NCBI GenBank assembly: GCA_014526335.1
Contig: JACTAT010000040.1
Coordinates: 9,741,857 to 9,805,856, forward strand
Direction of reading: 5' to 3'
From: Chrysaora quinquecirrha
Taxonomy: Eukaryota > Cnidaria > Scyphozoa > Semaeostomeae > Pelagiidae
Length of the DNA: 64,000 nucleotides
Below, one piece after another: positions 15,201 through 56,943 of this stretch. Under the pieces are notes generated by a model. It ran no database searches. It saw only the letters and a program-made list of their open reading frames with translations, and was not told the origin of the DNA. A program made the position numbers and the translations under genes. Positions within the stretch are counted from its first letter, which is position 1, and each line of letters begins with the position of its first letter.

Positions 15201-15211
15201 GCTAATTCCCC
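15201..15211 (-). pseudogene. tRNA-Ala 5' fragment at the left array border
   Basis: Only the first 11 nt of a tRNA-Ala (GGGGAATTAGC on the minus strand) remain, followed by a full family B spacer. It marks the break where the array meets unique DNA. Confidence 0.8.
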
Positions 15212-15289
15212 TATACTAAATTACTTATCTAACTGCAAGTGACAGACATCAGAGTGAGCATTCTTCAATGGTAATTCATAATATACAGC

Positions 15290-18200
15290 TGGAGAATCTG
15301 GGCATTGATTCCAGTACCTCTCGCATGCAAAGCGAGCGCTCTACCATCTGAGCTAATTCCCCTATACTAAATTACTTATCTAACTGCAAGTGACGGAAAT
15401 CAGAGTGAGCATTCTTCAATGGTAATTCAAAACATAGGACTTGAGAATCTGGGCATCGATCCCAGTACCTCTCGCATGCGAAGCGAGCACTCTACCATTT
15501 CAGCTAATTCCCCTATACTAAATTACTGATATAACTGCAAGTGAGAGACATCAGAGTGAGCATTCTTCAATGGTAATTCAAAATAAACAGCTGGAGAATC
15601 TGGGCATCGATTCCAGTACCTCTCGCATGCAAAGCAAGCTCTCTACCATTTGAGCTAATTCCCCTATACTATACCATTTGACTAAGGGTAAGTGACAAAC
15701 ATTGAGTGACAGTTCTTTAGATGGTAATTCAGAACAGAGGACTGGAGAGTCTGGGCATCGATCCCAGTACCTCTCGCATGCGAAGCGAGCGCTCTACCAT
15801 TTCAGCTAATTCCCCTATACTAAATTACTTATCTAACTGCAAGTGACAGACATCAGAGTGAGCATTCTTCAATGGTAATTCAAAATATACAGCTGGAGAG
15901 TCTGGGCATCGATCCCAGTACCTCTCGCACGCAAAGCGAGCGCTCTACCATTTCAGCTAATTCCCCTATACTAAATTACTTATCTAACTGCAAGTGACAG
16001 ACATCAGAGTGAGCATTCTTCAATGGTAATTCAAAATATACAGCTGGAGAATCTGGGCATCGATCCCAGTACCTCTCGCATGCAAAGCGAGCGCTCTAAC
16101 ATTTGAGCTAATTCCCCATTACTATATCATTTGACTAAGGGTAAGTGACAAACATTGAGTGACAGTTCTTTAGATGGTAATTGAAAACAGAGGACTGGAG
16201 AATCTGGGTATCGATCCCAGTACCTCTCGCATGCAAAGCGAGCGCTCTACCACTTGAGCTAATTCCTCAATACTATATCGTTTGACTAAGGGTAAGTGAC
16301 AAACATCGAGTGACAGATCTTTAGATGGTAATTGAAAACAGAGGACTGGAGAATCTGGGTATCGATCCCAGTACCTCTCGCATGCAAAGCCAGCGCTCTA
16401 CCATTTGAGCTAATTCCTCAATACTATATCATTTGACTAAGGGTAAGTGACAAACATTGAGTGACAGTTCTTTAGATGGTAATTCAAAACAAAGGACTGG
16501 AGAATCTGGGTATCGATCCCAGTACCTCTCGCATGCTAAGCGAGCACTCTACCATTTGAGCTAATTCCCCTATACTATATCAATTGACTAAGGGTAAGTG
16601 ACAAACATTGAGTGACAGTTCTTTAGATGGTAATTCAAAACAGAGGACTGGAGAATCTGGGTATCGATCCCAGTACCTCTCGCATGCTAAGCGAGCACTC
16701 TACCATTTGAGCTAATTCCTCTATACTATATCAATCGACTAAGGGTAAGCGTCAAACATTGAGTGACAGTTCTTCAGATGGTAATTAAAAACAGAAAACT
16801 GGAGAATCTGGGTATCGATCCCAGTACCTCTCGCATGCTAAGCGAGCACTCTACCATTTGAGCTAATTCCCCTATACTATATCAATTGACTAAGGGTAAG
16901 TGACAAACATTGAGTGACAGTTCTTTAGATGGTAATTAAAAACAGAAAACTGGAGAATCTGGGTATCGATCCCAGTACCTCTCGCATGCAAAGCGAGCGC
17001 TCTACCATTTCAGTTAATTCCCCTATACTAAATTACTTATCTAACTGCAAGTGACAGACATCAGAGTGAGCATTCTTCAATGGTAATTCAAAATATACAG
17101 CTGGAGAATTTGGGCATCGACCCCAGTACCTCTCGTGTGCGAAGCGAGCGCTCTACCATTTCAGTTAATTCCCCTATACTAAATTACTTATCTAACTGCA
17201 AGTGACAGACATCAGAGTGAGCATTCTTCAATGGTAATTCAAAATATACAGCTGGAGAATCTGGGCATCGATCCCAGTACCTCTCGAATGCGAAGCGAGC
17301 GCTCTACCATTTTAACTAATTCCCCTATACTAAATTACTTATCTAACTGCAATTGACAGACATCAGAGTGAGCATTCTTCAATGGTAATTCAAAATATAC
17401 AGCTGGAGAATCTGGGCATCGATCCCAGTACCTCTCGCATGCAAAGCGAGCGCTCTACCATTTGAGCTAATTCCCCTATACTAAATTACTTATCTAACTG
17501 CAAGTGACAGACATCAGAGTGAGCACTCTTCAATGGTAATTCAAAATATACAGCTGGAGAATCTGGGCATCGATCACCAGTACCTCTCTCACGCTTAGCG
17601 AGCGCTCTTCCATTTGAGCTAATTCCCCTATAATATATCATATGTCTACGTGTAAGTGACAAACGTTGAGTGACAGTTCTTTAGATGATAATTCAAAACA
17701 GAGGACTGGAGAATCTGGGTATCGATCCCAGTACCATTCGCATGCTAAGCGAGAGCTCTACCATTTGAGCTAATTCCCCTATACTATATCATTTGACTAA
17801 GGGTAAGTGAAAAACATTGAGTGACAGTTCTTTAGATGGTAATTCAAAACAGAGGACTGGAGAATCTGGGTATCGATCCCAGTACCTCTCGCATGCAAAG
17901 CGAGCGCTCTACCATTTGAGCTAATTCCCCTATACTATATCATTTGACTAAGGGTAAGTGACAAACATTGAGTGACAGTTCTTTAGATGGTAATTCAAAA
18001 CAGAAGAATGGAGAATCTGGGTATCGATCCCAGTACATCTCGCATGCGAAGCGAGCGCTCTACCATTTGAGCTAATTCCCCTATACTATATCATTTCTCT
18101 ATGGGTAAGTGACAAACATTGAGTGACAGTTCTTTAGATGGTAATTCAAAACAGAGGACTGGAGAATCTGGGCATCGATCCCAGTACCTCTCGCATGCAA

Positions 18201-18534
18201 AGCGAGCGCTCTACCATTTGAGCTAACTCCCCTATACTATATCATTTCACTAAGGGTAAGTGACAAACGTTGAGTGACAGTTCTTTAGATGGTAATTCAA
18301 AACAGAGGACTGGAGAATCAGGGTATCGATCCCAGTACCTCTCGCATGCTAAGCGAGCGCTCTACCATTTGAGCTAATACCCCTATACTATATCATTTGA
18401 CTAAGGGTAAGTGACAAACATTGAGTGACAGTTCTTTAGATGGTAATTCAAAACAGAGGACTGGAGAATCTGGGTATCGATCCCAGTACCTCTCGCATGC
18501 GAAGCGAGCGCTCTACCATTTGAGCTAATTCCCC
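15290..18534 (-). tRNA. tRNA-Ala cluster, block 1 (22 genes)
   Basis: Each gene runs from the listed plus-strand base (A73) about 72 bases upward to G1. UGC: 15290, 15592, 15894, 16045, 16196, 16347, 16951, 17404, 17858, 18160. AGC: 16498, 16649, 16800, 17555, 17707, 18311. CGC: 15441, 15743, 17102, 17253, 18009, 18462. Family A and B spacers alternate here. Oddities: 15290 has G57 changed to A and a broken T stem; 15441 has C72 changed to A; 17555 has U33 changed to A; 16347 has a broken anticodon stem. Several CGC genes have D stem GCTG in place of GCTC, which breaks pair 13-22. Most others fold fully. Confidence 0.9.
18462..18534 (-). tRNA. tRNA-Ala(CGC), type example
   Basis: A full 73-nt cloverleaf: acceptor GGGGAAT/ATTCTCC with G3.U70, D stem GCTC/GAGC, anticodon stem CTCGC/GCGAG around TTCGCAT (anticodon CGC, reads GCG), T stem CTGGG/CCCAG, A73, no encoded CCA. 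The box A match is TAGCTCAAATGG and box B is GGATCGATACC. No intron. Confidence 0.93.
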
Positions 18535-18612
18535 TATACTAAATTACTTATCTAACTGCAAGTGACAGACATCAGAGTGAGCATTCTTCAATGGTAATTC
18601 AAAATATACAGC

Positions 18613-18649
18613 TGGAGAATCTGGGCATTGATTCCAGTACCTCTCGCAT
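18613..18649 (-). pseudogene. tRNA-Ala truncated at the anticodon stem
   Basis: Only the 3' half remains (T arm and acceptor 3' strand). The sequence passes from the anticodon-stem bases CTCTCGCAT directly into spacer CTAACTGCAAG. The junction shares AT with both sides, so a short-homology deletion joined two units. Confidence 0.9.
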
Positions 18650-18710
18650 CTAACTGCAAGTGACAGAAATCAGAGTGAGCATTCTTCAATGGTAATTCAA
18701 AACATAGGAC

Positions 18711-20444
18711 TGGAGAATCTGGGCATCGATCCCAGTACCTCTCGCATGCGAAGCGAGCGCTCTACCATTTGAGCTAATTTCCCTATACTAAATTACTTAT
18801 CTAACTGCAAGTGACAGACATCAGAGTAAGCATTCTTCAATGGTAATTCAAAATATACAGCTGGAGAATCTGGGCATCGATCCCAGTACCTCTCGCATGC
18901 GAAGCGAACGCTCTACCATTTGAGCTAATTCCCCTATACTAAATTACTTATCTAACTGCAAGTGACAGACATCAGAGTAAGCATTCTTCAATGGTAATTC
19001 AAAATATACAACTGGAGAATCTGGGCATCGATCCCAGTACCTCTCGAAGGCGAAGCGAGCGCTCTACCGATTGAGCTAATTCCCCTATACTAAATTACTT
19101 ATCTAACTGCAAGTGACAGACATCAGAGTAAGCATTCTTCAATGGTAATTCAAAACATAGGACTGGAGAATCTGGGCATCGATCCCAGTACCTCTCGCAT
19201 GCGAAGCGAGCGCTCTACCATTTGAGCTAATTTCCCTATACTAAATTACTTATCTAACTGCAAGTGACAGACATCAGAGTAAGCATTCTTCAATGGTAAT
19301 TCAAAATATACAGCTGGAGAATCTGGGCATCGATCCCAGTACCTCTCGCATGCGAAGCGAACGCTCTACCATTTGAGCTAATTCCCCTATACTAAATTAC
19401 TTATCTAACTGCAAGTGACAGACATCAGAGTAAGCATTCTTCAATGGTAATTCAAAATATACAACTGGAGAATCTGGGCATCGATCCCAGTACCTCTCGC
19501 ATGCGAAGCGAACGCTCTACCATTTGAGCTAATTCCCCTATACTAAATTACTTATCTAACTGCAAGTGACAGACATCAGAGTAAGCATTCTTCAATGGTA
19601 ATTCAAAATATACAACTGGAGAATCTGGGCATCGATCCCAGTACCTCTCGAAGGCGAAGCGAGCGCTCTACCATTTGAGCTAATTCCCCTATACTAAATT
19701 ACTTATCTAACTGCAAGTGACAGACATCAGAGTAAGCATTCTTCAATGGTAATTCAAAATATACAACTGGAGAATCTGGGCATCGATCCCAGTACCTCTC
19801 GAAGGCGAAGCGAGCGCTCTACCGATTGAGCTAATTCCCCTATACTAAATTACTTATCTAACTGCAAGTGACGAAAATCAGAGTGAGCATTCTTCAATGG
19901 TAATTCAAAACATAGGACTGGAGAATCTGGGCATCGATCCCAGTACCTCTCGCATGCAAAGCGAGCGCTCTACCATCTGAGCTAATTCCCCAATACTATA
20001 TGATTTGACTAAGAGTAAGTGACAAACATTGAGTGACAGTTCTTTAGATGGTAATTCAAAACAGAGGACTGGAGAATCTGGGTATCGATCCAACTACCTC
20101 TCGCATGCTAAGCGAGCGCTCTACCATTTGAGCTAATTCCCCTATATTGTATCATTTGATTAAGGGTAAGTGACAAACATTGAGTGACAGTTCTTTAGAT
20201 GGTAATTCAAAACAGAGGACTGGAGAATCTGGGTATCGATCCCAGTACCTCTCGCATGCGAAGCGAGCGCTCTACCATTTGAGCTAATTCCCCTATACTA
20301 AATTACTTATCTAACTGAAAGTGACATACATCAGAGTAAGCATTCTTCAATGGTAATTCAAAATATACAACTGGAGAATCTGGGCATCGATCCCAGTACC
20401 TCTCGAATGCAAGCGAGCGCTCTACCGATTGAGCTAATTCCCCT
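18711..20444 (-). tRNA. tRNA-Ala cluster, block 2 (CGC-rich, mostly family B spacers)
   Basis: CGC: 18711, 18862, 19013, 19164, 19315, 19466, 19617, 19768, 20221. UGC: 19919. AGC: 20070. Loop-deleted: 20372. This is the main CGC run of the array. Copies at 19013, 19617 and 19768 read TTCGCCT in the loop and TCGAG in the 3' stem strand (31-39 mismatch, C37), so they may be inactive. The run 18862-19768 repeats a three-gene motif, showing local duplication. Confidence 0.9.
20372..20443 (-). pseudogene. tRNA-Ala with a 6-nt anticodon loop
   Basis: The loop reads TTGCAT, one T short of TTTGCAT, so position 32 or 33 is missing. Three other units share this change (25375, 31089, 33652). A six-base loop should not decode normally. 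Confidence 0.8.
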
Positions 20445-23400
20445 ATACTAAACTACTTATCTAACTGCAAGTGACGGAAATCAGAGTGAGCATTCTTCAA
20501 TGGTAATTCAAAACATAGGACTGGAGAATCTGGGCATCGATCCCAGTACCTCTCGCATGCAAAGCGAGCGCTCTACCATCTGAGCTAATTCCCCAATACT
20601 ATATCATTTGACTAAGAGTAAGTGACAAACATTGAGTGACAGTTCTTTAGATGGTAATTCAAAACAGAGGACTGGAGAATCTGGGTATCGATCCCAGTAC
20701 CTCTCGCATGCTAAGCGAGCGCTCTACCATTTGAGCTAATTCCCCTGTACTATATCATTTGACTAAGGGTAAGTGACAAACATTTAGTGACAGTTCTTTA
20801 GATGGTAATTGAAAACAGAGGACTGGAGAATCTGGGTATCGATCCCAGTACCTCTCGCATGCTTAGCGAGCGCTCTTCCATTTGAGCTAATTCCCCTATA
20901 CTATATCATTTGTCTACGTGTAAGTGACAAAAGTTGAGTGACAGTTCTTTAGATGGAAATTCAAAACAGAAGACTGGAGAATCTGGGTATCGATCCCAGT
21001 ACCTCTAGCATGCTAAGAGAGCGCTCTTCCATTTGAGCTAACTTCCCTATACTATATCATTTGACTAAGGGTAAGTGACAAACATTTAGCGACAGTTCTT
21101 TAGATGGTAATTCAAAACAGAGGACTGGAGAATCTGGGTATCGATCCCAGTACCTCTCGCATGCTAAGCGAGCGCTCTACCATTTGAGCTAATTCCCTTT
21201 TACTATATAATTTGTCTACGTGTAAGTGATAAACGTTGAGTGACAGTACTCTAGATGGTTATTCAAAACAGAGGACTGGAGAATCTGGGTATCGATCCCA
21301 GTACCTCTCGCATGCAAAGCGAGCGCTCTACCATTTGAGCTAATTCCCCTATACTATATCATTTGACTAAGGGTAAGTGACAAACATTGAGTGACAGTTC
21401 TTTAGATGGTAATTCAAAACAGAAGAATGGAGAATCTAGGTATCGATCCCAGTACATCTCGCATGCAAAGCGAGCGCTCTACCATTTGAGCTAATTCCCA
21501 TATACTATATCATTTGACTAAGGGTAAGTGACAAACATTGAGTGACAGTTCTTTAGATGGTAATTCAAAACAGAGGACTGGAGAATCTGGGTATCGATCC
21601 CAGTACCTCTCGCATGCTAAGCGAGCGCTCTACCATTTGAGCTAATTCCCTATACTATATCATTTGTCTAAGGGTAAGTGACAAACATTGAGTGACAGTT
21701 CTTTAGATGGTAATTCAAAACAGAGGACTGGAGAATCTGGGTATCGATCCCAGTACCTCTCGCATGCAAAGCGAGCGCTCTACCATTTGAGCTAATTCCC
21801 TATACTATATCATTTGACTAAGGGTAAGTGACAAACATTGAGTGACAGTTCTTTAGATGGTAATTCAAAACAGAGGACTGGAGAATCTGGGTATCGATCC
21901 CAGTACCTCTCGCATGCAAAGCGAGCGCTCTACCATTTGAGCTAATTCCCCTATACTATATCATTTGACTAAGGGTAAGTGACAAACATTTAGTGACAGT
22001 TCTTTAGATGGTAATTAAAAACAGAGGACTGGAGAATCTGGATATCGATCCCAGTACCTCTCGCATGCAAAGCGAGCGCTCTACCATTTGAGCTAATTCC
22101 CCTATACTATATCATTTGACTAAGGGTAAGTGACAAACATTGAGTGACAGTTCTTTAGATGGTAATTCAAAACAAAGGACTGAAGAATCTGGGTATCGAT
22201 CCCAGTACCTCTCGCATGCTAAGCGAGCGCTCTACATTTGAGCTAATCCCCCTATACTATATCATTTGACTAAGGGTAAGTGACAAACATTTAGTGACAG
22301 TTCTTTAGATGGTAATTAAAAACAGAGGACTGGAGAGTCTGGGTATCGATCCCAGTACCTCTCGCATGCAAAGCGAGCGCTCTACCATTTGAGCTAATTC
22401 CCCTATACTATATCATTTGAATAAGGGTAAGTGACAAACATTTAGTGACAGTTCTTTAGATGGTAATTCAAAACAGAAGACTGGAGAATCTGGGTATCGA
22501 TCCCAGTACCTCTCGCATGCTAAGCGAGCGCTCTTCCATTTGAGCTAATTCCCCTATACTATATCATTTGTCTACGTGTAAGTGACAAAAGTTGAGTGAC
22601 AGTTCTTTAGATGGAAATTCAAAACAGAAGACTGGAGAATCTGGGTATCGATCCCAGTACCTCTAGCATGCTAAGCAAGCGCTCTTCCATTTGAGCTAAT
22701 TCCCCTATACTATATCATTTGACTAAGGGTAAGTGACAAACATTTAGTGACAGTTCTTTAGATGGTAATTGAAAACAGAGGACTGGAGAATCTGGGTATC
22801 GATCCCAGTACCTCTCGCATGCTAAGCGAGCGCTCTACCATTTGAGCTAATTCCCCTATACTATATCATTTGTCTACGTGTAAGTGACAAAAGTTGAGTG
22901 ACAGTTCTTTAGATGGAAATTCAAAACAGAAGACTGGAGAATCTGGGTATCGATCCCAGTACCTCTCGCATGCAAAGCGAGCGGTCTGCCATTTGAGCTA
23001 ATTCCCCAATACTATATCATTTGACTAAGGGTAAGTGACAAACATTGAGTGACAGTTCTTTAAATGGTAATTGAAAACAGAGGACTGGAGAATCTGGGTA
23101 TCGATCCCAGTACCTCTCGCATGCAAAGCGAGCGCTCTACCATTTGAGCTAATTCCCCTATACTATATCATTTGACTAAGGGTAAGTGACAAACATTGAG
23201 TGACAGTTCTTTAGATGGTAATTCAAAACAAAGGACTGGAGAATCTGGGTATCGATCCCAGTACCTCTCGCATGCTAAGCGAGCGCTCTACCATTTGAGC
23301 TAATCCCCCTATACTATATCATTTGACTAAGGGTAAGTGACAAACATTTAGTGACAGTTCTTTAGATGGTAATTAAAAACAGAGGACTGGAGAATCTGGG

Positions 23401-24285
23401 TATCGATCCCAGTACCTCTCGCATGCAAAGCGAGCGCTCTACCATTTGAGCTAATTCCTATATCATTTGACTAAGGGTAAGTGACAAACATTGAGTGACA
23501 GTTCTTTAGATGGTAATTGAAAACAGAGGACTGGAGAATCTGGGTATCGATCCCAGTACCTCTCGCATGCTAAGCGAGCGCTCTACCATTTGAGCTAATT
23601 CCCCTATACTATATCATTTGACTAAGGGTAAGTGACAAACATTGAGTGACAGTTCTTTAGATGGTAATTCACAACAGAAGACTGGAGAATCTGGGTATCG
23701 ATCCCAGTACCTCTCGCATGCAAAGCGAGCGGTCTGCCATTTGAGCTAATTCCCCAATACTATATCATTTGACTAAGGGTAAGTGACAAACATTGAGTGA
23801 CAGTTCTTTAAATGGTAATGGAAAACAGAGGACTGGAGAATCTGGGATTTCGATCCCAGTACCTCTCGCATGCAAAGCGAGCGCTCTACCATTTGAGCTA
23901 ATTCCCCTATACTATATCATTTGACTAAGGGTAGGTGACAAACATTGAGTGACAGTTCTTTAGATGGTAATTCAAAACAAAGGACTGGAGAATCTGGGTA
24001 TCGATCCCAGTACCTCTCGCATGCTAAGCGAGCGCTCTACCATTTGAGCTAATCTCCCTATACTATATCATTTGACTAAGGGTAAGTGACAAACATTTAG
24101 TGACAGTTCTTTAGATGGTAATTAAAAACAGAGGACTGGAGAATCTGGGTATCGATCCCAGTACCTCTCGCATGCAAAGCGAGCGCTCTACCATTTGAGC
24201 TAATTCCCTATACTATATCATTTGACTAAGGTAAGTGACAAACATTGAGTGACAGTTCTTTAGATGGTAATTCAAAACAGAGGAC

Positions 24286-24320
24286 TGGAGAATCTGGGTA
24301 TCGATCCCAGTACAGAGGAC
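24286..24320 (-). pseudogene. Duplicated tRNA 3' fragment (T arm only)
   Basis: About 35 bp covering the acceptor 3' strand and T arm are duplicated directly in front of the complete AGC gene at 24321. The complete gene is therefore followed by a second T arm in the downstream direction and its usual terminator is pushed away. Confidence 0.85.
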
Positions 24321-24620
24321 TGGAGAATCTGGGTATCGATCCCAGTACCTCTCGCATGCTAAGCGAGCGCTCTACCATTTGAGCTAATTCCCTATACTAT
24401 ATCATTTGACTAAGGGTAAGTGACAAACATTGAGTGACAGTTCTTTAGATGGTAATTCAAAACAGAGGACTGGAGAATCTGGGTATCGATCCCAGTACCT
24501 CTCGCATGCAAAGCGAGCGCTCTACCATTTGAGCTAATTCCCTATACTATATCATTTGACTAAGGGTAAGTGACAAACATTGAGTGACAGTTCTTTAGAT
24601 GGTAATTCAAAACAGAGGAC

Positions 24621-24693
24621 TGGAGAATCTGGGTATCGATCCCAGTACCTCTCGCATGCTAAGCGAGCGCTCTACCATTTGAGCTAATTCCCC
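24621..24693 (-). tRNA. tRNA-Ala(AGC), type example
   Basis: A full cloverleaf with anticodon loop TTAGCAT (AGC; A34 is normally modified to inosine and reads GCU, GCC and GCA). G3.U70, A73, intact D, anticodon and T stems, box A TAGCTCAAATGG. TTTT lies 8 nt past A73. The spacer is family A. Confidence 0.94.
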
Positions 24694-24771
24694 TATACTA
24701 TATCATTTGACTAAGGGTAAGTGACAAACATTGAGTGACAGTTCTTTAGATGGTAATTCAAAACAGAGGAC

Positions 24772-24844
24772 TGGAGAATCTGGGTATCGATCCCAGTACC
24801 TCTCGCATGCAAAGCGAGCGCTCTACCATTTGAGCTAATTCCCC
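24772..24844 (-). tRNA. tRNA-Ala(UGC), type example
   Basis: Identical body to the AGC example at 24621 except base 34 (loop TTTGCAT, anticodon UGC, reads GCA and GCG). All stems pair. UGC is the most frequent type in the array. Confidence 0.94.
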
Positions 24845-25073
24845 TATACTATATCATTTGACTAAGGGTAAGTGACAAACATTGAGTGACAGTTCTTTAG
24901 ATGGTAATTCAAAACAGAGGACTGGAGAATCTGGGCATCGATCCCAGTACCTCTCGCATGCAAAGCGAGCGCTCTACCATTTGAGCTAATTCCCCTATAC
25001 TAAACTACTTATCTAACTGCAAGTGACGGAAATCAGAGTGAGCATTCTTCAATGGTAATTCAAAACATAGGAC

Positions 25074-28000
25074 TGGAGAATCTGGGCATCGATCCCAGTA
25101 CCTCTCGCATGCAAAGCGAGCGCTCTACAATCTGAGCTAATTCCCCTATACTATATCAATTGACTAAGGGTAAGTGACAAACATTGAGTGACAGTTCTTT
25201 AGATGGTAATTCAAAACAGAGGACTGGAGAATCTGGGTATCGATCCCAGTACCTCTCGCATGCGAAGCGAGCGCTCTACCATTTGAGCTAATTCCCTATA
25301 CTATATCATTTGACTAAGGGTAAGTGACAAACATTGAGTGACAGTTCTTTAGATGGTAATTCAAAACAGAGGACTGGAGAATCTGGGCATCGATCCCAGT
25401 ACCTCTCGCATGCAAGCGAGCGCTCTACCATTTGAGCTAATTCCCTATACTAAATCACTTATCTAACTGCAAGTGACAAACATCAGAGTGACAGTTCTTT
25501 AGATGGTAATTCAAAACAGAGGACTGGAGAATCTGGGTATCGATCCCAGTACCTCTCGCATGCAAAGCGAGCGCTCTACCATTTGAGCTAATTCCCCAAT
25601 ACTATATCATTTGACTAAGAGTAAGTGACAAACATTGAGTGACAGTTCTTTAGATGGTAATTCAAAACAGAGGACTGGAGAATCTGGGTATCGATCCCAG
25701 TACCTCTCGCATGCTAAGCGAGCGCTCTACCATTTGAGCTAATTCCCCTGTACTATATCATTTGACTAAGGATAAGTGACAAACATTGAGTGACAGTTCT
25801 TTAGATGGTAATTCAAAACAGAGGACTGGAGAATCTGGGTATCGATCCCAGTACCGATCGCATGCTAAGCGAGCGCTCTACCATCTGAGCTAGTTCCCCA
25901 ATACTATATCATTTCACTTAGGGTAAGTGACAAACATTTAGTGACAGTTCTTTAGATGGTAATTGAAAAAAGAGGACTGGAGAATCTTGGTATCGATCCC
26001 AGTACCTCTCGCATGCTAAGCGAGCGCTCTACCATTTGAGATAATTCCCTATACTATATCATTTATCTAACTGCAAGTGACAAACATTGAGTGACAGTTC
26101 TTTAGATGGTAATTCAAAACATAGGACTGGAGAATCTGGGCATCGATCCCAGTACCTCTCGCATGCAAAGGGAGCGCTCTACCATTTGAGCTTATTCCTC
26201 AATACTATATCATTTCACTTAGGGTAAGTGACAAACATTGAGTGACAGTTCTTTAGATGGTAATTAAAAACAGAAAACTGGAGAATCTGGGCATCGATCC
26301 CAATACCTCTCGCATGCTAAGCGAGCGCTCTACCATTTGAGCTAATTCCCCTATACTATACCATTTGATTAAGGGTAAGTGACAAACATTGAGTGACAGT
26401 TCTTTAGATGGTAATTAAAAACAGAAAACTGGAGAATCTGGGTATCGATCCCAGTACCTCTCGCATGCTAAGCTAGCGCTCTACCATTTGAGCTAATTCC
26501 CCTATACTATATCATTTGATTAAGGGTAAGTGACAAACATTGAGTGACAGTTCTTTAGATGGTAATTAAAAACAGAAAACTGGAGAATCTGGGTATCGAT
26601 CCCAGTACCTCTCGCATGCAAAGCGAGCGCTCTACCATTTGAGCTAATTCCCCTATACTAAACTACTTATCTAACTGCAAGTGACGGAAATCAGAGTGAC
26701 AGTTCTTCAGATGGTAATTCAAAACATAGGACTGGAGAATCTGGGCATCGATCCCAGTACCTCTCGCATGCAAAGCGAGCGCTCTACCATCTGAGCTAAT
26801 TCCCCAATACTATATCATTTGACTAAGAGTAAGTGACAAACATTGAGTGACAGTTCTTTAGATGGTAATTAAAAACAGAAAACTGGAGAATCTGGGTATC
26901 GATCCCAGTACCTCTCGCATGCAAAGCGAGCGCTCTACCATCTGAGCTAATTCCCCTATACTAAATTACCTATCTAACTGCAAGTGACAAAATCAGAGTG
27001 ACAGTTCTTTAGATGGTAATTCAAAACAGAGGACTGGAGAATCTGGGCATCGATCCCAGTACCTCTCGCATGCAAAGCGAGCGCTCTACCATTTGAGCTA
27101 ATTCCCCTATACTATATCATTTCACTAAGGGTAAGTGACAAACGTTGAGTGACAGTTCTTTAGATGGTAATTCAAAACAGAGGACTGGAGAATCTGGGTA
27201 TCGATCCCAGTACCTCTCGCATGCTAAGCGAGCGCTCTACCATTTGAGCTAATTCCCTATACTATATCATTTGACTAAGGGTAAGTGACAAACATTTGAG
27301 TGACAGTTCTTTAGATGGTAATTCAAAACAGAGGACTGGAGAATCTGGGTATCGATCCCAGTACCTCTCGCATGCAAAGCGAGCGCTCTACCATTTGAGC
27401 TAATTCCCTATACTATATCATTTGACTAAGGGTAAGTGACAAACATTGAGTGACAGTTCTTTAGATGGTAATTCAAAACAGAGGACTGGAGAATCTGGGT
27501 ATCGATCCCAGTACCTCTCGCATGCAAAGCGAGCGCTCTACCATTTGAGCTAATTCCCTATACTATATCATTTGACTAAGGGTAAGTGACAAACGTTGAG
27601 TGACAGTTCTTTAGATGGTAATTCAAAACAGAGGACTGGAGAATCTGGGTATCGATCCCAGTACCTCTCGCATGCTAAGCGAGCGCTCTACCATTTGAGC
27701 TAATTCCCCTATACTATATCATTTGACTAAGGGTAAGTGACAAACATTGAGTGACAGTTCTTTAGATGGTAATTCAAAACAGAGGACTGGAGAATCTGGG
27801 TATCGATCCCAGTACCTCTCGCATGCAAAGCAAGCGCTCTGCCATTTGAGCTAATTCCTCAATACTATATCATTTGACTAAGGGTAAGTGAGAAACATTG
27901 AGTGACAGTTCTTTAGATGGTAATTCAAAACAGAGGACTGGAGAATCTGGGTATCGATCCCAGTACCTCTCGCATGCTAAGCGAGCGCTCTACCATTTGA

Positions 28001-31000: not shown

Positions 31001-31011
31001 GTTAATTCCCC
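25074..31011 (-). tRNA. tRNA-Ala cluster, block 4 (40 units)
   Basis: UGC: 25074, 25525, 26128, 26581, 26733, 26884, 27035, 27337, 27487, 27788, 28234, 28384, 28686, 28986, 29287, 29437, 29585, 29735, 30188, 30339, 30490, 30637, 30788. AGC: 25676, 25827, 25978, 26279, 26430, 27186, 27637, 27939, 28083, 28535, 28836, 29137, 29886, 30037. CGC: 25225, 30939. Loop-deleted: 25375. Hybrid A/B spacers appear near 26050, 29370 and 29520. Many 5' ends read TTCCC in place of TTCCCC, so G1 is missing. 30339 has G4.U69 as well as G3.U70. Confidence 0.9.
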
Positions 31012-31088
31012 TATACTAAATTACTTATATAACTGAAAGTGACAAACATTGAGTGACAGTTCTTTAATGGTAATTCAAAACAGAGGAC

Positions 31089-37787: not shown

Positions 37788-37865
37788 AATACTATATCAT
37801 TTGACTAAGGGTAAGTGATAAACGTTGAGTGACAGTTCTTTAGATGGTAATTCAAAACAGAGGAC

Positions 37866-43600: not shown

Positions 43601-44203
43601 GGAGAATCTGGGTATCGATCCCAGTACCTCTCGCATGCAAAGCGAGCGCTCTACCATTTGAGCTAATTCTTCAATACTATATCATTTGACTAAGGGTAAG
43701 TGACAAACATTTAGTGACAGTTCTTTAGATGGTAATTGAAAAAAGAGGACTGGAGAATCTTGGTATCGATCCCAGTACCTCTCGCATGCAAAGCGAGCGC
43801 TCTACCATTTGAGCTAATTCCCCTATACTATATCATTTGATTAAGGGTAAGTGACAAACATTGAGTGACAGTTCTTTAGATGGTAATTCAAAATAGAGGA
43901 CTGGAGAATCTGGGTATCGATCCAAGTACCTCTCGCATGCTAAGCGAGCGCTCTATCATTTGAGCTAATTCCCCTATACTATATCAATTGACTAAGGGTA
44001 AGTGACAAACATTGAGTGACAGTTCTTTAGATGGTAATTAAAAACAGAAAACTGGAGAATCTGGGTATCGATCCCAGTACCCCTCGCATGCTAGGCGAGC
44101 GCTCTACCATTTGAGCTAATTCCCCTATACTATATCAATTGACTAAGGGTAAGTGACAAACATTGAGTGACAGTTCTTTAGATGGTAATTCAAAACAGAG
44201 GAC

Positions 44204-44276
44204 TGGAGAATCTGGGTATCGATCCCAGTACCTCTCGCATACTAAGCTAGCGCTCTACCATTTGAGCTAATTCCCT
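44204..44276 (-). tRNA. tRNA with alanine body and threonine anticodon AGU, copy 1
   Basis: The anticodon loop reads TTAGTAT between stem strands CTAGC and GCGAG (one A-G mismatch). Base 36 is T in place of C, giving anticodon AGU (ACU/ACC, Thr). G3.U70 is kept; base 1 is A because the C-run is one short. Established alanyl-tRNA synthetase rules favour alanine charging, so if expressed it could put Ala at Thr codons. Confidence 0.8.
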
Positions 44277-45559
44277 ATACTATATCATTTGATTAAGGGT
44301 AAGTGACAAACATTGAGTGACAGTTCTTTAGATGGTAATTCAAAACAGAGGACTGGAGAATCTGGGTATCGATCCCAGTACCTCTCGCATGCTAAGCGAG
44401 CGCTCTACCATTTGAGCTAATTCCCTATACTATATCATTTGATTAAGGGTAAGTGACAAACATTGAGTGACAGTTCTTTAGATGGTAATTCAAAACAGAG
44501 GACTGGAGAATCTGGGTATCGATCCCAGTACCTCTCGCATGCAAAGCGAGCGCTCTACCATTTGAGCTAATTCCCTATACTATATCATTTTATCTAACTG
44601 CAAGTGACAGACATTGAGTGACAGTTCTTTAGATGGTAATTCAAAACAGAGGACTGGAGAATCTGGGCATCGATCCCAGTACCTCTCGCATGCAAAGCGA
44701 GCGCTCTACCATTTGAGCTAATTCCCTATACTATATCATTTGATCTAACTGCAAGTGACAAACATTGAGTGACAGTTCTTCAGATGGTAATTCAAAACAG
44801 AGGACTGGAGAATCTGGGCATCGATCCCAGTACCTCTCGCATGCAAAGCGAGCGCTCTACCATTTGAGCTAATTCCCTATACTATATCATTTATCTAACT
44901 GCAAGTGACAAATCATTGAGTGAGCAGTTCTTTAGATGGTAATTCAAAACAGAGGACTGGAGAATCTGGGCATCGATCCCAGTACCTCTCGCATGCAAAG
45001 CGAGCGCTCTACCATTTGAGCTAATTCCTCAATACTATATCATTTGACTAAGGGTAAGTGACAAACATTGAGTGACAGTTCTTTAGATGGTAATTCAAAA
45101 CAGAGGACTGGAGAATCTGGGCATCGATCCCAGTACCTCTCGCATGCTAAGCGAGCGCTCTACCATTTGAGCTAATTCCCTATACTATATCATTTGACTA
45201 AGGGTAAGTGACAAACATTGAGTGACAGTTCTTTAGATGGTAATTCAAAACAGAGGACTGGAGAATCTGGGTATCGATCCCAGTACCTCTCGCATGCAAA
45301 GCGAGCGCTCTACCATTTGAGCTAATTCCTCAATACTATATCATTTGACTAAGGGTAAGTGACAAACATTGAGTGACAGTTCTTTAGATGGTAATTCAAA
45401 ACAGAGGACTGGAGAATCTGGGTATCGATCCCAGTACCTCTCGCATGCTAAGCGAGCGCTCTACCATTTGAGCTAATTCCCTATACTATATCATTTGACT
45501 AAGGGTAAGTGACAAACATTGAATGACAGTTCTTTAGATGGTAATTCAAAACAGAGGAC

Positions 45560-45632
45560 TGGAGAATCTGGGTATCGATCCCAGTACCTCTCGCATGTGA
45601 CGCGAGCGCTCTACCATTTGAGCTAATTCCCT
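45560..45632 (-). tRNA. tRNA with alanine body and valine anticodon CAC, copy 1
   Basis: The loop reads GTCACAT in an intact CTCGC/GCGAG stem; U33 is kept and the anticodon is CAC (GUG, Val). The acceptor keeps G3.U70. Three adjacent plus-strand changes (CATGTGACG against CATGCAAAG) produced it. A second copy with the same following genes lies at 49617. Confidence 0.82.
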
Positions 45633-46315
45633 ATACTAAATCACTTATATAGCTGCAAGTGACAAACATTGAGTGACAGTTGTTCAGATGGTAAATTAAA
45701 ATATACAGACTGGAGAATCTGGGCATCGATCCCAGTACCTCTCGCATGCGAAGCGAGCGCTCTACCATTTCAGTTAATTCCCCGATACTAAATTACTTAT
45801 CTAACTGCAAGTGACAGACATCAGAGTGACAGTTCTTTAGATGGTAATTCAAAATATACAGCTGGAGAATCTGGGCATCGATCCCAGTACCTCCCGCATG
45901 CGAAGAGAGCGCTCTACCTTTTGAGCTAATCCCCCTATACTATATCATTCGACTAAGGGTAAGTGACAAACATTGAGTGACAGTTCTTTAGATGGTAATT
46001 GAAAACAGAGGACTGGAGAATCTGGGTATCGATCCAAGTACCTCTCGCATGCAAAGCGAGCGCTCTACCATTTGAGCTAATTTCTCAATACTATATTACT
46101 TATCTAACTGCAAGTGACAAACATTGAGTGACAGTTCTTTAGATGGTAATTCAAAACAGAGGACTGGAGAATCTGGGCATCGATCCCAGTACCTCTCGCA
46201 TGCAAAGCGAGCGCTCTACCATTTGAGCTAATTCCTGAATACTATATCATTTGACTAAGGGTAAGTGACAAACATTGAGTGACAGTTCTTTAGATGGTAA
46301 TTCAAAACAGAGGAC

Positions 46316-46367
46316 TGGAGAATCTGGGTATCGATCCCAGTACGCTCTACCATTTGAGCTAATTCCC
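46316..46367 (-). pseudogene. tRNA-Ala lacking its anticodon arm
   Basis: The plus strand passes from CCCAGTAC directly to GCTCTACC, so the anticodon stem-loop (about 21 nt) is deleted. Acceptor, D and T arms remain, and so do boxes A and B. It could still be transcribed by Pol III but cannot decode. Confidence 0.88.
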
Positions 46368-47048
46368 TATACTATATCATTTGACTAAGGGTAAGTGACA
46401 AACATTGAGTGACAGTTCTTTAGATGGTAATTCAAAACAGAGGACTGGAGAATCTGGGTATCGATCCCAGTACCTCTCGCATGCAAAGCGAGCGCTCTAC
46501 CATTTGAGCTAATTCCCTATACTATATCATTTGACTAAGGGTAAGTGACAAACATTGAGTGACAGTTCTTTAGATGGTAATTCAAAACAGAGGACTGGAG
46601 AATCTGGGTATCGATCCCAGTACCTCTCGCATGCAAAGCGAGCGCTCTACCATTTGAGCTAATTCCTGAATACTATATCATTTGACTAAGGGTAAGTGAC
46701 AAACATTGAGTGACAGTTCTTTAGATGGTAATTCAAAACAGAGGACTGGAGAATCTGGGTATCGATCCAAGTACCTCTCGCATGCTAAGCGAGCGCTCTA
46801 CCATTTGAGCTAATTCCCCTATACTATATCAATTGACTAAGGGTAAGTGACAAACATTGAGTGACAGTTCTTTAGATGGTAATTAAAAACAGAAAACTGG
46901 AGAATCTGGGTATCGATCCCAGTACCCCTCGCATGCTAAGCGAGCGCTCTACCATTTGAGCTAATTCCCCTATACTATATCAATTGACTAAGGGTAAGTG
47001 ACAAACATTGAGTGACAGTTCTTTAGATGGTAATTCAAAACAGAGGAC

Positions 47049-47121
47049 TGGAGAATCTGGGTATCGATCCCAGTACCTCTCGCATACTAAGCTAGCGCTC
47101 TACCATTTGAGCTAATTCCCC
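47049..47121 (-). tRNA. tRNA with alanine body and threonine anticodon AGU, copy 2
   Basis: The same TTAGTAT loop and CTAGC/GCGAG stem as the copy at 44204, but with G1 present, so the acceptor stem is fully paired with G3.U70. First gene of the eight-gene block that is duplicated at 48257. Confidence 0.82.
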
Positions 47122-48256
47122 TATACTATATCATTTGATTAAGGGTAAGTGACAAACATTCAGTTACAGTTCTTTAGATGGTAATTCAAAACAGAGGACT
47201 GGAGAATCTGGGTATCGATCCCATTACCTCTCGCATGCTAAGCGAGCGCTCTACCATTTGAGCTAATACCCCTATACTATATCATTTGATTAAGGGTAAG
47301 TGACAAACATTGAGTGACAGTTCTTTAGATGGTAATTCAAAACAGAGGACTGGAGAATCTGGGTACCGATCCCAGTACCTCTCGTATGCGAAGCGAGCGC
47401 TCTACTATTTCAGCTAATTCCCCTATACTAAATTACTTATCTAACTGCAAGTGACAGACATCAGAGTGAGCATTCTTCAATGGTAATTCAAACTATACAG
47501 CTGGAGAATCTGGGCATTGATCCCAGTACCTCTCGCATGCAAAGCGAGCGCTCTACCATCTGAGCTAATTCCCCTATACTAAATAACCTATCTAACTGCA
47601 AGTGACAGAAATCAGAGTGAGCATTCTTCAATGGCAATTCAAAATATACAGTTGGAGAATCTGGGCATCGATCCCAGTACCTCTCGCATGCGAAGCGAGC
47701 GCTCTACCGATTGAGCTAATTCCCCTATACTAAATTACTTATCTAACTGCAAGTGACGGAAATCAGAGCGAGCATTCTTCAATGGTAATTCAAAACATAG
47801 GACTGGAGAATCTGGGCATCGATCCCAGTACCTCTCGCATGCAAAGCGAGCGCTCTACCATTTGAGCTAATTCCTCAATACTATATCATTTGACTAAGGG
47901 TAAGTGACAAACATTGAGTGACAGTTCTTTAGATGGTAATTCAAAACAGAGGACTGGAGAATCTGGGCATCGATCCCAGTATCTCTCGCATGCTAAGCGA
48001 GCGCTCTACCATTTGAGCTAATTCCCCTATACTATATCAATTGACTAAGGGTAAGTGACAAACATTGAGTGACAGTTCTTTAGATGGTAATTGAAAACAG
48101 AGGACTGGAGAATCTGGGTATCGATCCCAGTACCTCCCGCATGCAAAGCGAGCGCTCTACCGTTTGAGCTAATTCCTCAATACTATATCATTTGACTAAG
48201 GGTAAGTGACAAACATTGAGTGACAGTTCTTTAGATGGTAATTCAAAACAGAGGAC

Positions 48257-48329
48257 TGGAGAATCTGGGTATCGATCCCAGTACCTCTCGCATACTAAGC
48301 TAGCGCTCTACCATTTGAGCTAATTCCCC
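48257..48329 (-). tRNA. tRNA with alanine body and threonine anticodon AGU, copy 3
   Basis: Equivalent to the gene at 47049 in the second copy of the eight-gene block, offset 1208 bp. The acceptor stem is fully paired with G3.U70. Confidence 0.82.
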
Positions 48330-49616
48330 TATACTATATCATTTGATTAAGGGTAAGTGACAAACATTCAGTTACAGTTCTTTAGATGGTAATTCAAAAC
48401 AGAGGACTGGAGAATCTGGGTATCGATCCCATTACCTCTCGCATGCTAAGCGAGCGCTCTACCATTTGAGCTAATACCCCTATACTATATCATTTGATTA
48501 AGGGTAAGTGACAAACATTGAGTGACAGTTCTTTAGATGGTAATTCAAAACAGAGGACTGGAGAATCTGGGTACCGATCCCAGTACCTCTCGTATGCGAA
48601 GCGAGCGCTCTACTATTTCAGCTAATTCCCCTATACTAAATTACTTATCTAACTGCAAGTGACAGACATCAGAGTGAGCATTTCTTCAATGGTAATTCAA
48701 ACTATAGGACTGGAGAATCTGGGCATTGATCCCAGTACCTCTCGCATGCAAAGCGAGCGCTCTACCATTTGAGCTAATTCCCCTATACTAAATAACCTAT
48801 CTAACTGCAAGTGACAGAAATCAGAGTGAGCATTCTTCAATGGCAATTCAAAATATACAGTTGGAGAATCTGGGCATCGATCCCAGTACCTCTCGCATGC
48901 GAAGCGAGCGCTCTACCGATTGAGCTAATTCCCCTATACTAAATTACTTATCTAACTGCAAGTGACGGAAATCAGAGCGAGCATTCTTCAATGGTAATTC
49001 AAAACATAGGACTGGAGAATCTGGGCATCGATCCCAGTACCTCTCGCATGCAAAGCGAGCGCTTTACCATTTGAGCTAATTCCTCAATACTATATCATTT
49101 GACTAAGGGTAAGTGACAAACATTGAGTGACAGTTCTTTAGATGGTAATTCAAAACAGAGGACTGGAGAATCTGGGCATCGATCCCAGTATCTCTCGCAT
49201 GCTAAGCGAGCGCTCTACCATTTGAGCTAATTCCCCTATACTATATCAATTGACTAAGGGTAAGTGACAAACATTGAGTGACAGTTCTTTAGATGGTAAT
49301 TGAAAACAGAGGACTGGAGAATCTGGGTATCGATCCCAGTACCTCCCGCATGCAAAGCGAGCGCTCTACCGTTTGAGCTAATTCCTCAATACTATATCAT
49401 TTGACTAAGGGTAAGTGACAAACATTGAGTGACAGTTCTTTAGATGGTAATTCAAAACAGAGGACTGGAGAATCTGGGTATCGATCCCAGTACCTCTCGC
49501 ATGCTAAGCGAGCGCTCTACCATTTGAGCTAATTCCCCTATACTATATCATTTGACTAAGGGTAAGTGACAAACATTGAATGACAGTTCTTTAGATGGTA
49601 ATTCAAAACAGAGGAC

Positions 49617-49689
49617 TGGAAAATCTGGGTATCGATCCCAGTACCTCTCGCATGTGACGCGAGCGCTCTACCATTTCAGTTAATTCCCC
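49617..49689 (-). tRNA. tRNA with alanine body and valine anticodon CAC, copy 2
   Basis: Loop GTCACAT as at 45560. This copy also has T69 (G4.U69 wobble next to G3.U70) and a D arm of TAACTG, which weakens box A. It is less likely to be transcribed than the copy at 45560. Confidence 0.75.
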
Positions 49690-52035
49690 TATACTAAATT
49701 ACTTATATAGCTGCAAGTGACAGACATCAGAGTGTGCATTGTTCAATGGTAAATTAAAAATATACAGCTGGAGAATCTGGGCATCGATCCCAGTACCTCT
49801 CGTATGCGAAGCGAGGGCTCTACCATTTCAGTTAATTCCCCGATACTAAATTACTTATCTAACTGCAAGTGACAGACATCAGAGTGAGCATTCTTCAATG
49901 GTAATTCAAAATATACAGCTGGAGAATCTGGGCATCGATCCCAGTACCTCTCGCATGCGAAGCGAGCGCTCTACCATTTCAACAAATTCCCCTATACTAT
50001 ATCATTCGACTAAGGGTAAGTGACAAACATTGAGTGACAGTTCTTTAGATGGTAATTGAAAACAGAGGACTGGAGAATCTGGGTATCGATCACAGTACCT
50101 CTCGCATGCAAAGCGAGCGCTCTACCATTTGAGCTAATTTCTCAATACTAAATTACTTATCTAACTGCAAGTGACTGAAATCAGAGTGAGCATTCTTCAA
50201 TGGTAATTCAAAACATAGGACTGGAGAATCTGGGCATCGATCCCAGTACCTCTCGCATGCAAAGCGAGCGCTCTACCATTTGAGCTAATTCCTGAATACT
50301 ATATCATTTGACTAAGGGTAAGTGACAAACATTGAGTGACAGTTCTTTAGATGGTAATTCAAAACAGAGGACTGGAGAATCTTGGTATCGATTCCAGTAC
50401 CTCTCGAATGCAAAGCGAGCGCTCTACCATTTGAGCTAACTCCCCTATACTATATCATTTGACTAAGGGTAAGTGACAAACATTGAGTGACAGTTCTTTA
50501 GATGGTTATTCAAAACAGAGGACTGGAGAATCTGGGCATCGATCCCAGTACCTCTCGAATGCAAAGCGAGCGCTCTACCATTTGAGCTAACTCCCCTATA
50601 CTATATCATTTGACTAAGGGTAAGTGACAAACATTGAGTGACAGTTCTTTAGATGGTTATTCAAAACAGAGGACTGGAGAATCTGGGCATCGATCCCAGT
50701 ACCTCTCGCATGCAAAGCGAGCGCTCTACCATTTGAGCTAACTCCCCTATACTATATCATTTGACTAAGGGTAAGTGACAAACATTGAGTGACAGTTCTT
50801 TAGATGGTTATTCAAAACAGAGGACTGGAGAATCAGGGTATCGATCCCAGTACCTCTCGCATGCTAAGCGAGCGCTCTACCATTTGAGCTAATCCCCCTA
50901 TACTATATCATTCGACTAAGAGTAAGTGACAAACATTGAGTGACAGTTCTTTAGATGGTAATTCAAAACAGAGGACTGGAGAATCTGGGTATCGATCCCA
51001 GTACCTCTCGCATGCTAAGCGAGCGCTCTACCATTTGAGCTAATTCCCCTATACTATATCATTTGACTAAGGGTAAGTGACAAACATTGAGTGACAGTTC
51101 TTTAGATGGTAATTCAAAACAGAGGACTGGAGAATCAGGGTATCGATCCCAGTACCTCTCGCATGCTAAGCAAGCGCTCTACCATTTGAGCTAATTCCCC
51201 TATACTATATCAATTGACTAAGGGTAAGTGACAAACATTGAGTGACAGTTCTTTAGATGGTAATTCAAAACAGAGGACTGGAGAATCTGGGTATCGATCC
51301 CAGTACCTCTCGCATGCTAAGCGAGCGCTCTACCATTTGAGCTAATTCCCCTATACTAAATTACCTATCTAACTGCAAGTGACAGAAATCAGAGTGAGCA
51401 TTCTTCAATGGCAATTCAAAATATACAGTTGGAGAATCTGGGCATCGATCCCAGTACCTCTCGCATGCAAAGCGAGCGCTCTACCATTTGAGCTAATTCT
51501 CCTATACTATATCATTTCACTAAGGGTAAGTGACAAACGTTGAGTGACAGTTCTTTAGATGGTAATTCAAAACAGAGGACTGGAGAATCAGGTTATCGAT
51601 CCCAGTACCTCTCGCATGCTAAGCGAGCGCTCTACCATTTGAGCTAATACCCCTATACTATATCATTCGACTAAGAGTAAGTGACAAACATTGAGTGACA
51701 GTTCTTTAGATGGTAATTCAAAACAGAGGACTGGAGAATCTGGGTATCGATCCCAGTACCTCTCGCATGCTAAGCGAGCACTCTACCATTTGAGCTAATT
51801 CCCCTATACTATATCATTTGACTAAGGGTAAGTGACAAACATTGAGTGACAGTTCTTTAGATGGTAATTCAAAACAGAGGACTGGAGAATCAGGGTATCG
51901 ATCCCAGTACCTTTCGCATGCTAAGCGAGCGCTCTACCATTTGAGCTAATTCCCCTATACTATATATCATTTGACTAAGGGTAAGTGACAAACATTGAGT
52001 GACAGTTCTTTAGATGGTAATTCAAAACAGAGGAC

Positions 52036-52108
52036 TGGAGAATCTGGGTATCGATCCCAGTACCTCTCGCATGGAAAGCGAGCGCTCTGCCATTTGAGCT
52101 AATTCCTC
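52036..52108 (-). tRNA. tRNA with alanine body and glycine anticodon UCC
   Basis: The loop reads TTTCCAT, so one base change (G35 to C) turns UGC into UCC (GGA, Gly). The anticodon stem is intact. A2 opposite C71 weakens the acceptor stem, but G3.U70 is kept. It is a single copy. Confidence 0.75.
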
Positions 52109-54223
52109 AATACTATATCATTTGACTAAGGGCAAGTGACAAACATTGAGTGACAGCTCTTTAGATGGTAATTCAAAACAGAGGACTGGAGAATCTGGGT
52201 ATCGATCCCAGTACCTCTCGCATGCAAAGCGAGCGCTCTACCATTTGAGCTAATTCCTGAATACTATATCATTTGACTAAGGGTAAGTGACAAACATTGG
52301 GTGACAGTTCTTTCGATGGTAATTCAAAACAGAGGACTGGAGAATCTGGGTATCGATCCCAGTACCTCTCGCATGCAAAGCGAGCGCTCTACCATTTGAG
52401 CTAACTCCCCTATACTATATCATTTGACTAAGGGTAAGTGACAAACATTGAGTGACAGTTCTTAAGATGGTTATTCAAAACAGAGGACTGGAGAATCTGG
52501 GCATCGATCCCAGTACCTCTCGCATGCAAAGCGAGCGCTCTACCATTTGAGCTAATTCCCCAATACTATATCATTTGACTAAGGGTAAGTGACAAACATT
52601 GGGTGACAGTTCTTTCGATGGTAATTCAAAACAGAGGACTGGAGAATCTGGATATCGATCTCAGTACCTCTCGCATGCAAAGCGAGCGCTCTACCATTTG
52701 AGCTAATTCCCCTATACTATATCATTTGACTAAGGTTAAGTGACAAACATTGAGTGACAGTTCTTTAGATGGTTATTCAAAACAGAGGACTGGAGAATCT
52801 GGGTATCGATTCCAGTACCTCTCGCATGCAAAACGAGCGCTCTACCATTTGAGCTAATTCCCCTATACTATATCATTTGATTAAGGGTAAGTGACAAACA
52901 TTGAGTGACAGTTCTTTACATGGTAATTCAAAACAGAGGACTGGAGAATCTGGGCATCGATCCCAGTACCTCTCGCATGCAAAGCGAGCGCTCTACCATT
53001 TGAGCTAATTCCCCTATACTAAATTACTTATCTAACTGCAAGTGACAGACATCAGAGTGAGCATTCTTCAATGGCAATTCAAAATATACAGTTGGAGAAT
53101 CTGGGCATCGATCCCAGTACCTCTCGCATGCGAAGCGAGCGCTCTACCGATTGTGCTAATTCCCCTATACTAAATTACTTATCTAACTGCAAGTGACGGA
53201 AATCAGAGTGAGCATTCTTCAATGGTAATTCAAAACATAGGACTGGAGAATCTGGGCATCGATCCCAGTACCTCTCGCATGCAAAGCGAGCGCTCTACCA
53301 TTTGAGCTAATTCTCCTATACTATATCATTTGACTAAGGGTAAGTGACAAACATTTAGTGACAGTTCTTTAGATGGTAATTCAAAACAGAGGACTGGAGA
53401 ATCTGGGTATCGATCCCAGTACCTCTCGCATGCAAAGCGAGCGCTCTACCATTTGAGCTAATTCTCCTATACTATATCATTTGACTAAGGGTAAGTGACA
53501 AACATTTAGTGACAGTTCTTTAGATGGTAATTCAAAACAGAGGACTGGAGAATCTGGGTATCGATCCCAGTACCTCTCGCATGCAAAGCGAGCGCTCTAC
53601 CATTTGAGCTAATTCCCCTATACTATATCATTTGACTAAGGGTAAGTGACAAACATTGAGTGACAGTTCTTTAGATGGTAATTCAAAACAGAGGACTGGA
53701 GAATCTGGGTATCGATCCCAGTACCTCTCGCATGCAAAGCGAGCGCTCTTCCATTTGAGCTAATTCCGCTATACTATATTATTTGTCTACGTGTAAGTGA
53801 CAAAAGTTGAGTGACAGTTCTTTAGACGGTAATTGAAAACAGAGGACTGGAGAATCTGGGTATCGATACCAGTACCTCTCGCATGCTTAGCGAGCGCTCT
53901 TCCATTCGAGCTAATTCCCCTATACTATATCATTTGACTAAGGGTAAGTGACAAACATTGAGTGACAGTTCTTTAGATGGTTATTCAAAAAAGAGGACTG
54001 GAGAATCTGGGTATCGATCCCAGTACCTCTCGCATGCTAAGCGAGCGCTCTACCATTTGGGCTAATTCCCCTATACTATATCATTTGACTAAGGGTAAGT
54101 GACAAACGTTGAGTGACAGTTCTTTTAATGGTAATTCAAAACCGAGGACTGGAGAATCTGGATATCGATTCCAGTACCTCTCGCATGCGAAGCGAGCGCT
54201 CTATTATTTGAGGTAATTCCCCT

Positions 54224-54290
54224 GTAATGTTTGTACAAGTGACAAACATTACAATGACAATTCCTTTTCGGGAATCAGGGTATCGAACTT
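54224..54290 (-). pseudogene. Decayed last unit at the right array border
   Basis: After the CGC gene at 54150 the spacer is shortened (GTACAAGTGACAAACATT is recognisable). A T-arm remnant (GGGAATCAGGGTATCGAACT) is left, and beyond it no array sequence is seen. Confidence 0.75.

Positions 54291-56880: not shown

Positions 56881-56943
<63 letters not shown>

Follow-up and report, generated by a model that had tools for sequence, protein, structure and literature searches.

Evenly spaced, head-to-tail arrays of tRNA genes, in tens to hundreds of copies, have been described in the hydrozoan Hydractinia, where their significance is given as unknown; the same study reports tRNA arrays also in Nematostella and did not find RNA arrays in any further cnidarian genome (PMC11067881; for this and the other published systems, our statements follow the excerpts available of each source). 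In Nematostella, 89% of tRNA genes (tDNAs) are clustered, mostly as heterogeneous pairs, and there are clusters of at least 50 (PMC2888827). Entamoeba array units carry up to five different tRNA genes, which in E. histolytica and E. dispar are separated by short tandem repeats (PMC2652664). A human tRNA variable-number tandem repeat at 1q23.3 has 7.3-kb units, of which tRNA genes make up less than 6% (PMC4041453), and the Arabidopsis SYY tandem cluster of Ser and Tyr genes is heterochromatic, silent in most tissues and usable in one (PMC12308677). Here we analyse a tandem array of 260 tRNA-Ala matches from the jellyfish Chrysaora quinquecirrha, lying in a 64-kb stretch of DNA (the window; G000:C324:9741857-9805856) of an assembly of 328 Mb in 740 contigs. 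We put at about 60% the probability that the array is a redundant, single-locus bank of RNA polymerase III (Pol III)-type tRNA-Ala genes, of a class with A at position 54 (A54), kept tRNA-like by selection.

The array is like those of Hydractinia in its even spacing and its copy number, with 260 matches in the window, mostly 150-151 bp apart, and 194 at a second locus on contig C335. It is also like them in the high similarity of copies and spacers, the mean pairwise unit identity of the window array being 0.904, with two spacer lineages. It differs from them in its ~78-bp spacer, its presence on two flank-sharing contigs, its mixture of three Ala anticodons and the constraint test applied to it (PMC11067881). 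Spacer length we take to describe the Hydractinia arrays rather than to define tRNA arrays in general. As to arrays for many amino acids, a further trait of the Hydractinia type, those seen here besides Ala are Lys arrays on contigs C467 and C268 and regular tRNA-like runs on C96, C246, C179 and C290. Large clusters are shared with Nematostella, but here one amino acid is encoded almost throughout (PMC2888827). In contrast to Entamoeba there is one gene per ~151-bp unit, and no such short repeats were seen in the unit (PMC2652664). Whereas copy number varies both here and at human 1q23.3, tRNA occupies about half of each unit here (PMC4041453). Tandem tDNA is common to this locus and Arabidopsis SYY, where expression was tested; our analysis is of sequence alone (PMC12308677). 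An initial, sequence-only reading of the window had called the size of the array far beyond the usual, which holds for most animals, although the Nematostella clusters of at least 50 are a precedent (PMC2888827). We found no earlier description of this Ala array in the open-licence PMC literature, the only literature covered, which is weak evidence of absence.

A consensus search of the window put all 260 matches on its minus strand, between 15290 and 54222, with 188 of the 259 spacings at 151 bp and 44 at 150 bp. The repeat unit consists of a 73-bp gene and a ~78-bp spacer. Of the matches, two are clearly incomplete, at 28 and 41 nt, and the spacings include three outliers (131, 35 and 98 bp); the three corresponding matches were left out of the unit alignment, which therefore holds 257 units. 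ARAGORN called 237 tRNA genes in the window, every one inside the array; the ~10 kb adjoining the window on each side (L022, L023) gave none. Tandem Repeats Finder (TRF) reported repeats of period 151, or multiples of it, across 15201-54223. Rfam scoring placed 251 units above the tRNA threshold, all RF00005, minus strand and within the array, at 32.4 to 64.1 bits (the whole window and a two-piece rerun, 127 + 124, gave the same total). The proposed array of about 260 genes in one orientation and ~150-bp units thus holds in coordinates and spacing. Its features are as follows.

15201..54222, minus strand: tandem array of 260 tRNA-Ala matches, transcribed right to left (consensus search, ARAGORN, TRF, Rfam)
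53395..53467, minus strand: type unit, the top-scoring array gene, anticodon TGC, 64.1 bits (ARAGORN, Rfam)
53317..53394, minus strand: type-1 spacer, 3' of the type unit (sequence, unit alignment)
53383..53386, minus strand: TTTT of the type unit, a Pol III-type terminator lying 9-12 nt past A73 (sequence)
15290..15362, minus strand: final array gene in transcription order (ARAGORN, consensus search)
15201..15211, minus strand: array edge, where the flank cuts a gene after its first 11 nt (sequence)
54223..54290, minus strand: upstream array edge, with what is left of a degenerate, truncated unit (sequence, by eye)
18685..18783, minus strand: irregular junction, 98-bp spacing (consensus search; TRF row 18550-18747)
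24358..24393, minus strand: irregular junction, 35-bp direct duplication of a gene 3' end (consensus search; TRF row 24277-24348)
46237..46368, minus strand: irregular junction, 131-bp spacing (consensus search; TRF row 46212-46477)

Most units have the marks of alanine identity. The anticodon is TGC in 138 units, AGC in 81, CGC in 30 and something else in 8, giving an Ala anticodon in 249/257; positions 35 and 36 are G in 252 and C in 253 units, respectively. The description as a single-amino-acid array is right, except that 8 of the 257 units are non-Ala by anticodon. The G3.U70 pair, claimed for most units, was found in 248, and A73 in 256. Cloverleafs are less complete than the sequence-only reading had it. 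Stems are fully paired in 85/257 units, carry one mismatch in 122 and two or more in 50, so that 'most with complete cloverleafs' is overstated; at most one mismatch is present in 207/257 full-length units. A joint strict test, which added to the stems an Ala anticodon, the invariant bases, absence of indels, G3.U70 and a terminator, was passed perfectly by 74 units and by 176 with at most one mismatch. Single-sequence folding gave the cloverleaf as the minimum-energy structure for both common bodies, the A1 body folding to the same cloverleaf minus pair 1:72. A1.C72 is the most frequent mismatch (55 units), and in 53 of these 55 a G run has three bases, not four. We considered 5' editing as a reading of the A1.C72 units and found no support for it.

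The signals for Pol III are also widespread. Box A is matched in 226/257 units, as the sequence-only reading had claimed; the claim for box B stands (237/257) solely when position 54 is ignored, this position being A in 256 units, G in one and never T. The ClaI site ATCGAT was predicted for nearly every T loop and is present in 243. A first TTTT lies 9-12 nt past A73 in 230 units, nearer in 21 and is absent from 6, so that 251/257 window units and 180/184 units of the C335 alignment (10 of the 194 matches were left out of it) have a terminator close downstream.

Three comparisons agree in arguing from the pattern of variation that the tRNA body is constrained. First, the units of both loci fall into two spacer lineages of 375 and 51 units, together 426/441, with 15 fitting neither; the lineages differ at 17/78 spacer sites and at 1/73 tRNA sites, T-loop position 60 (p=7e-5). 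Second, common variants occupy 5/73 tRNA versus 24/78 spacer sites in the window (p=1.7e-4) and 4/73 versus 21/78 in C335 (p=3.7e-4); those in the window tRNA are at positions 1, 2, 13, 34 and 60. Third, diversity is 0.062 in the tRNA versus 0.127 in the spacer in the window, and 0.058 versus 0.097 in C335. Moreover, pair 50:64 is T-A in 251/257 window and 179/184 C335 genes and C-G in 8/8 solitary A54 genes elsewhere in the genome, which reads as a compensated double change that keeps the pair.

The wobble position, 34, is occupied by T, A or C, with G in 0/257 window and 0/184 C335 units (4 gapped); no p-value is attached to the missing G because exchange of units hides how many changes at this site were independent. 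When a tree is built from the remaining sites, position 34 requires 66 parsimony steps versus a mean of 4.5 for other tRNA sites. Among sites that differ between otherwise identical units, positions 34 and 1 tie for the top in the window (10 haplotypes each) and position 34 is first in C335 (7). The ratio of steps to shuffled-label steps among type-1 units is 0.74 in the window, 15th of 34 sites, and 1.0 in C335, 1st of 10. We do not claim wobble hypermutation: exchange that shuffles a high-frequency polymorphism explains the window, whilst the C335 rank would still allow it.

These results bear on a second explanation, in which the array is a tRNA-derived satellite, that is, a tandem-amplified tRNA gene whose copies are mostly silent or pseudogenes and owe their tRNA-like look to the founder and to homogenization. 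An unconstrained satellite should vary as freely in the tRNA as in the spacer, which is not what was found, although rare variants run the other way, being denser in the tRNA. The lineage differences, the conserved terminators (251/257), the absence of G34 from both loci and the compensated 50:64 pair all speak against it. The sequence-only reading had left open whether the array supplies tRNA, acts as a boundary or is a satellite. The pattern of variation speaks for tRNA genes that are maintained rather than for an unconstrained satellite of tRNA origin.

The second locus is informative for the soundness of the assembly. C335 holds the same locus in opposite orientation, its flanks matching those of the window over 842 bp (99.1%), 3456 bp (95.6%), 2611 bp (96.5%) and 376 bp (93.1%), and its array has the same junction as the window edge at 15201..15211, with a gene cut after 11 nt. 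C335 is probably the other haplotype of the array locus; a duplicated locus is the alternative, haplotype being the simplest reading. The string GGGATCGATRCCCAGATTCTCCA, from the 3' end of an array-type gene, has 362 exact matches in the genome (control, 0), 207 of them from the window and the other 155 from C335; in exact form it occurs nowhere else in the assembly. An exact-match search with the gene's 3' part against viral and prokaryote collections, a scope that takes in neither inexact relatives nor eukaryotes, gave 0 matches.

Tandem arrays are often misassembled, and an assembly artefact or false expansion must be weighed. We judge it extremely improbable: 229 of the 257 aligned units are distinct, the longest exact repeat in the array is 491 bp and both flanks are common to two loci of differing length and order. 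No 500-mer of the array occurs twice, which makes collapse and false expansion unlikely. Together with the separate array on C335, this meets indirectly the doubt raised over read support. The distinct units, the unique 500-mers and the C335 array with the same flanks led us to reject chance or artefact.

Unit order has diverged between the two loci. Aligned unit by unit, the two arrays score 16.1 versus 8.8-10.5 in four shuffles; colinearity is therefore weak but real, clearest at the left edge with little elsewhere. Within the window, neighbouring units are 0.931 identical versus 0.901 for units at least 60 apart. This weak colinearity and the barely closer neighbours point to fast turnover of unit order and copy number, as inferred from two contigs. 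The ratio of anticodons also differs, TGC:AGC:CGC being 91:89:6 in C335 (n=194).

The C335 array is interrupted by an insert of ~3.4 kb (C335:210482-213895; L021/L057) that carries endonuclease-like and reverse-transcriptase-like frames. From the motifs of these frames we take it to be a non-long-terminal-repeat retrotransposon. It lies inside one tRNA-Ala gene, from which the part from D arm to anticodon is missing. An inverted-repeat scan of the insert gave nothing diagnostic. The tRNA-targeting DNA transposon Dada (PMC3706591) was considered and set aside, since the insert looks like a retrotransposon.

The array is not the only source of tRNA-Ala genes. We found eight solitary A54 loci, all AGC, two of which (L008 and L010) match at 96% across 2.7 kb and might represent two haplotypes of a single locus. 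A second solitary class comprises several tRNA-Ala-TGC genes with T at position 54 (T54). Since the search for solitary genes scored 20 of its 22 candidates, their number is a lower bound. Their Rfam scores are 55.5-59.4 bits for A54 and 62.8-71.7 bits for T54; 100 of the 251 array units scored by Rfam reach at least 55.5 bits, the lowest solitary A54 value. Beside one solitary tRNA-Ala-TGC gene, 66 bp away, L018 carries a second tRNA-like gene (1332-1424, minus strand; 51 bits), with no triplet called as its anticodon.

Nor is it the only tandem array. tRNA-Lys genes form 149-bp units on C467 (L027-L029, L040-L054), where they lie in two runs, and 205-bp units on C268 (L031-L039). Diversity, computed for the units inside the retrieved stretches (53, 67 and 12), is 0.010 in the tRNA versus 0.104 in the spacer on C268 (12 units); the C467 runs show the reverse, as given below. 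Arrays of this genome differ in tRNA upkeep, and the Ala array is on the constrained side. The minus-strand run of C467 also contains TCT (Arg) anticodons on a Lys-type body. A generic A-box string has 787 genome-wide matches (control, 0), and among the matches listed are runs with a regular spacing of ~184 or ~324 bp (C96, C246, C179, C290) and many isolated ones. At C96:110-114 kb and C246:2.820-2.825 Mb there are, in each case, two diverging A-box runs of ~184-bp spacing on opposite strands. An RF00005 search of the genome gave 35636 loose first-look candidates, 63 of them scored, and is not a gene count.

Several observations weigh against a gene bank kept by selection, and most of them are what a satellite would show. 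At least one stem mismatch occurs in 172/257 units. The tRNA holds more rare variants per site than the spacer does, whether variant types (1.26 versus 0.87, p=0.005) or occurrences (4.1 versus 2.2, p=6e-5) are counted. In the C467 Lys arrays, tRNA diversity exceeds that of the spacer (0.035 versus 0.016 in 53 units, 0.069 versus 0.046 in 67). The interior order of units differs almost throughout between the window and C335, and a retrotransposon sits inside one gene of the latter. The two loci differ by 66 copies, which counts against a need for the array; likewise, since solitary tRNA-Ala genes exist, the array need not be required. The density of rare variants implies that constraint acts on the spread of variants, not on each copy. 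Dense rare variants would likewise be expected if transcribed tRNA genes mutate at a raised rate. With the lineage differences, terminators, wobble position and 50:64 pair on the other side, we regard the satellite, the chief rival of the gene bank, as somewhat unlikely.

A further explanation is that the array serves as a chromatin or replication element, its dense TFIIIC sites forming a boundary, a pause site or a block of phased nucleosomes, with tRNA output incidental. The box B matches (237/257, position 54 ignored) would suit such a use, and the ~151-bp period is near nucleosome size. In humans, CTCF binds a tRNA tandem repeat, of 9-43 units, that has been proposed as a boundary (PMC4041453). 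Boundary use alone, however, does not predict the constraint on anticodon positions 35-36 or the missing G34, and we think this explanation improbable.

We return to the redundant gene bank. In outline, an A54 tRNA-Ala gene would have been amplified head to tail at a single locus. Each unit, having a box A and a box B to itself, would be transcribed by Pol III, transcription stopping at the TTTT shortly past the gene and the product being processed to alanine tRNA. The intact fraction of units would supply redundant tRNA-Ala, possibly in only some tissues or stages. Unequal exchange and gene conversion would reorder the units quickly, while selection would keep most tRNA-damaging variants from spreading.

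Outside the array, simple-repeat tracts lie in both flanks (TRF: AGCA-type, 6799-7657; GAT-type, 56854-57181). A single-frame gene for a rhodopsin-family receptor lies near the array (10694-11812, plus strand; Pfam 7tm_1). The open reading frame matches 11 unnamed proteins at 42-55% identity, and the gene sits in the flank that is matched on both C324 and C335. Elsewhere, C179, a contig of at least 1.3 Mb, contains near 1.326 Mb (L064) a mitochondrial-type cox1 frame that is open under code 4. This frame has Pfam and PDB sequence matches, with TGA read as Trp (11 codons) and AGA as Arg (all 11 codons), as in coelenterate mitochondria. Such a code agrees with a cnidarian source, and gene order and sequence hint tentatively at Medusozoa. 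A cox2-like frame, identified by eye, lies beside it in divergent orientation. The cox1 on C179 is either a nuclear copy or a misjoin.

The kind of array described here is already known from Hydractinia (PMC11067881) and Nematostella (PMC2888827); this one is large and well assembled, the comparison of two contigs is useful, and it is unusual for three Ala anticodons to share a body. Few tRNA arrays have been assembled completely, and here two copies within one assembly, most likely haplotypes, can be compared. The locus is thereby a test case for how selection maintains a tandem tRNA family, for whether arrays feed translation and for the speed at which gene dosage changes within a species. 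UGC, AGC and CGC anticodons share one body, their ratios shift between the loci and G34 never occurs. This suggests an extension of the gene-bank reading, tentative and rather doubtful, in which the array is an isoacceptor-mixing bank and selection acts on the total Ala anticodon supply of one locus. If true, decoding of Ala codons would be retuned by rearranging a single locus, not by regulating dispersed genes.

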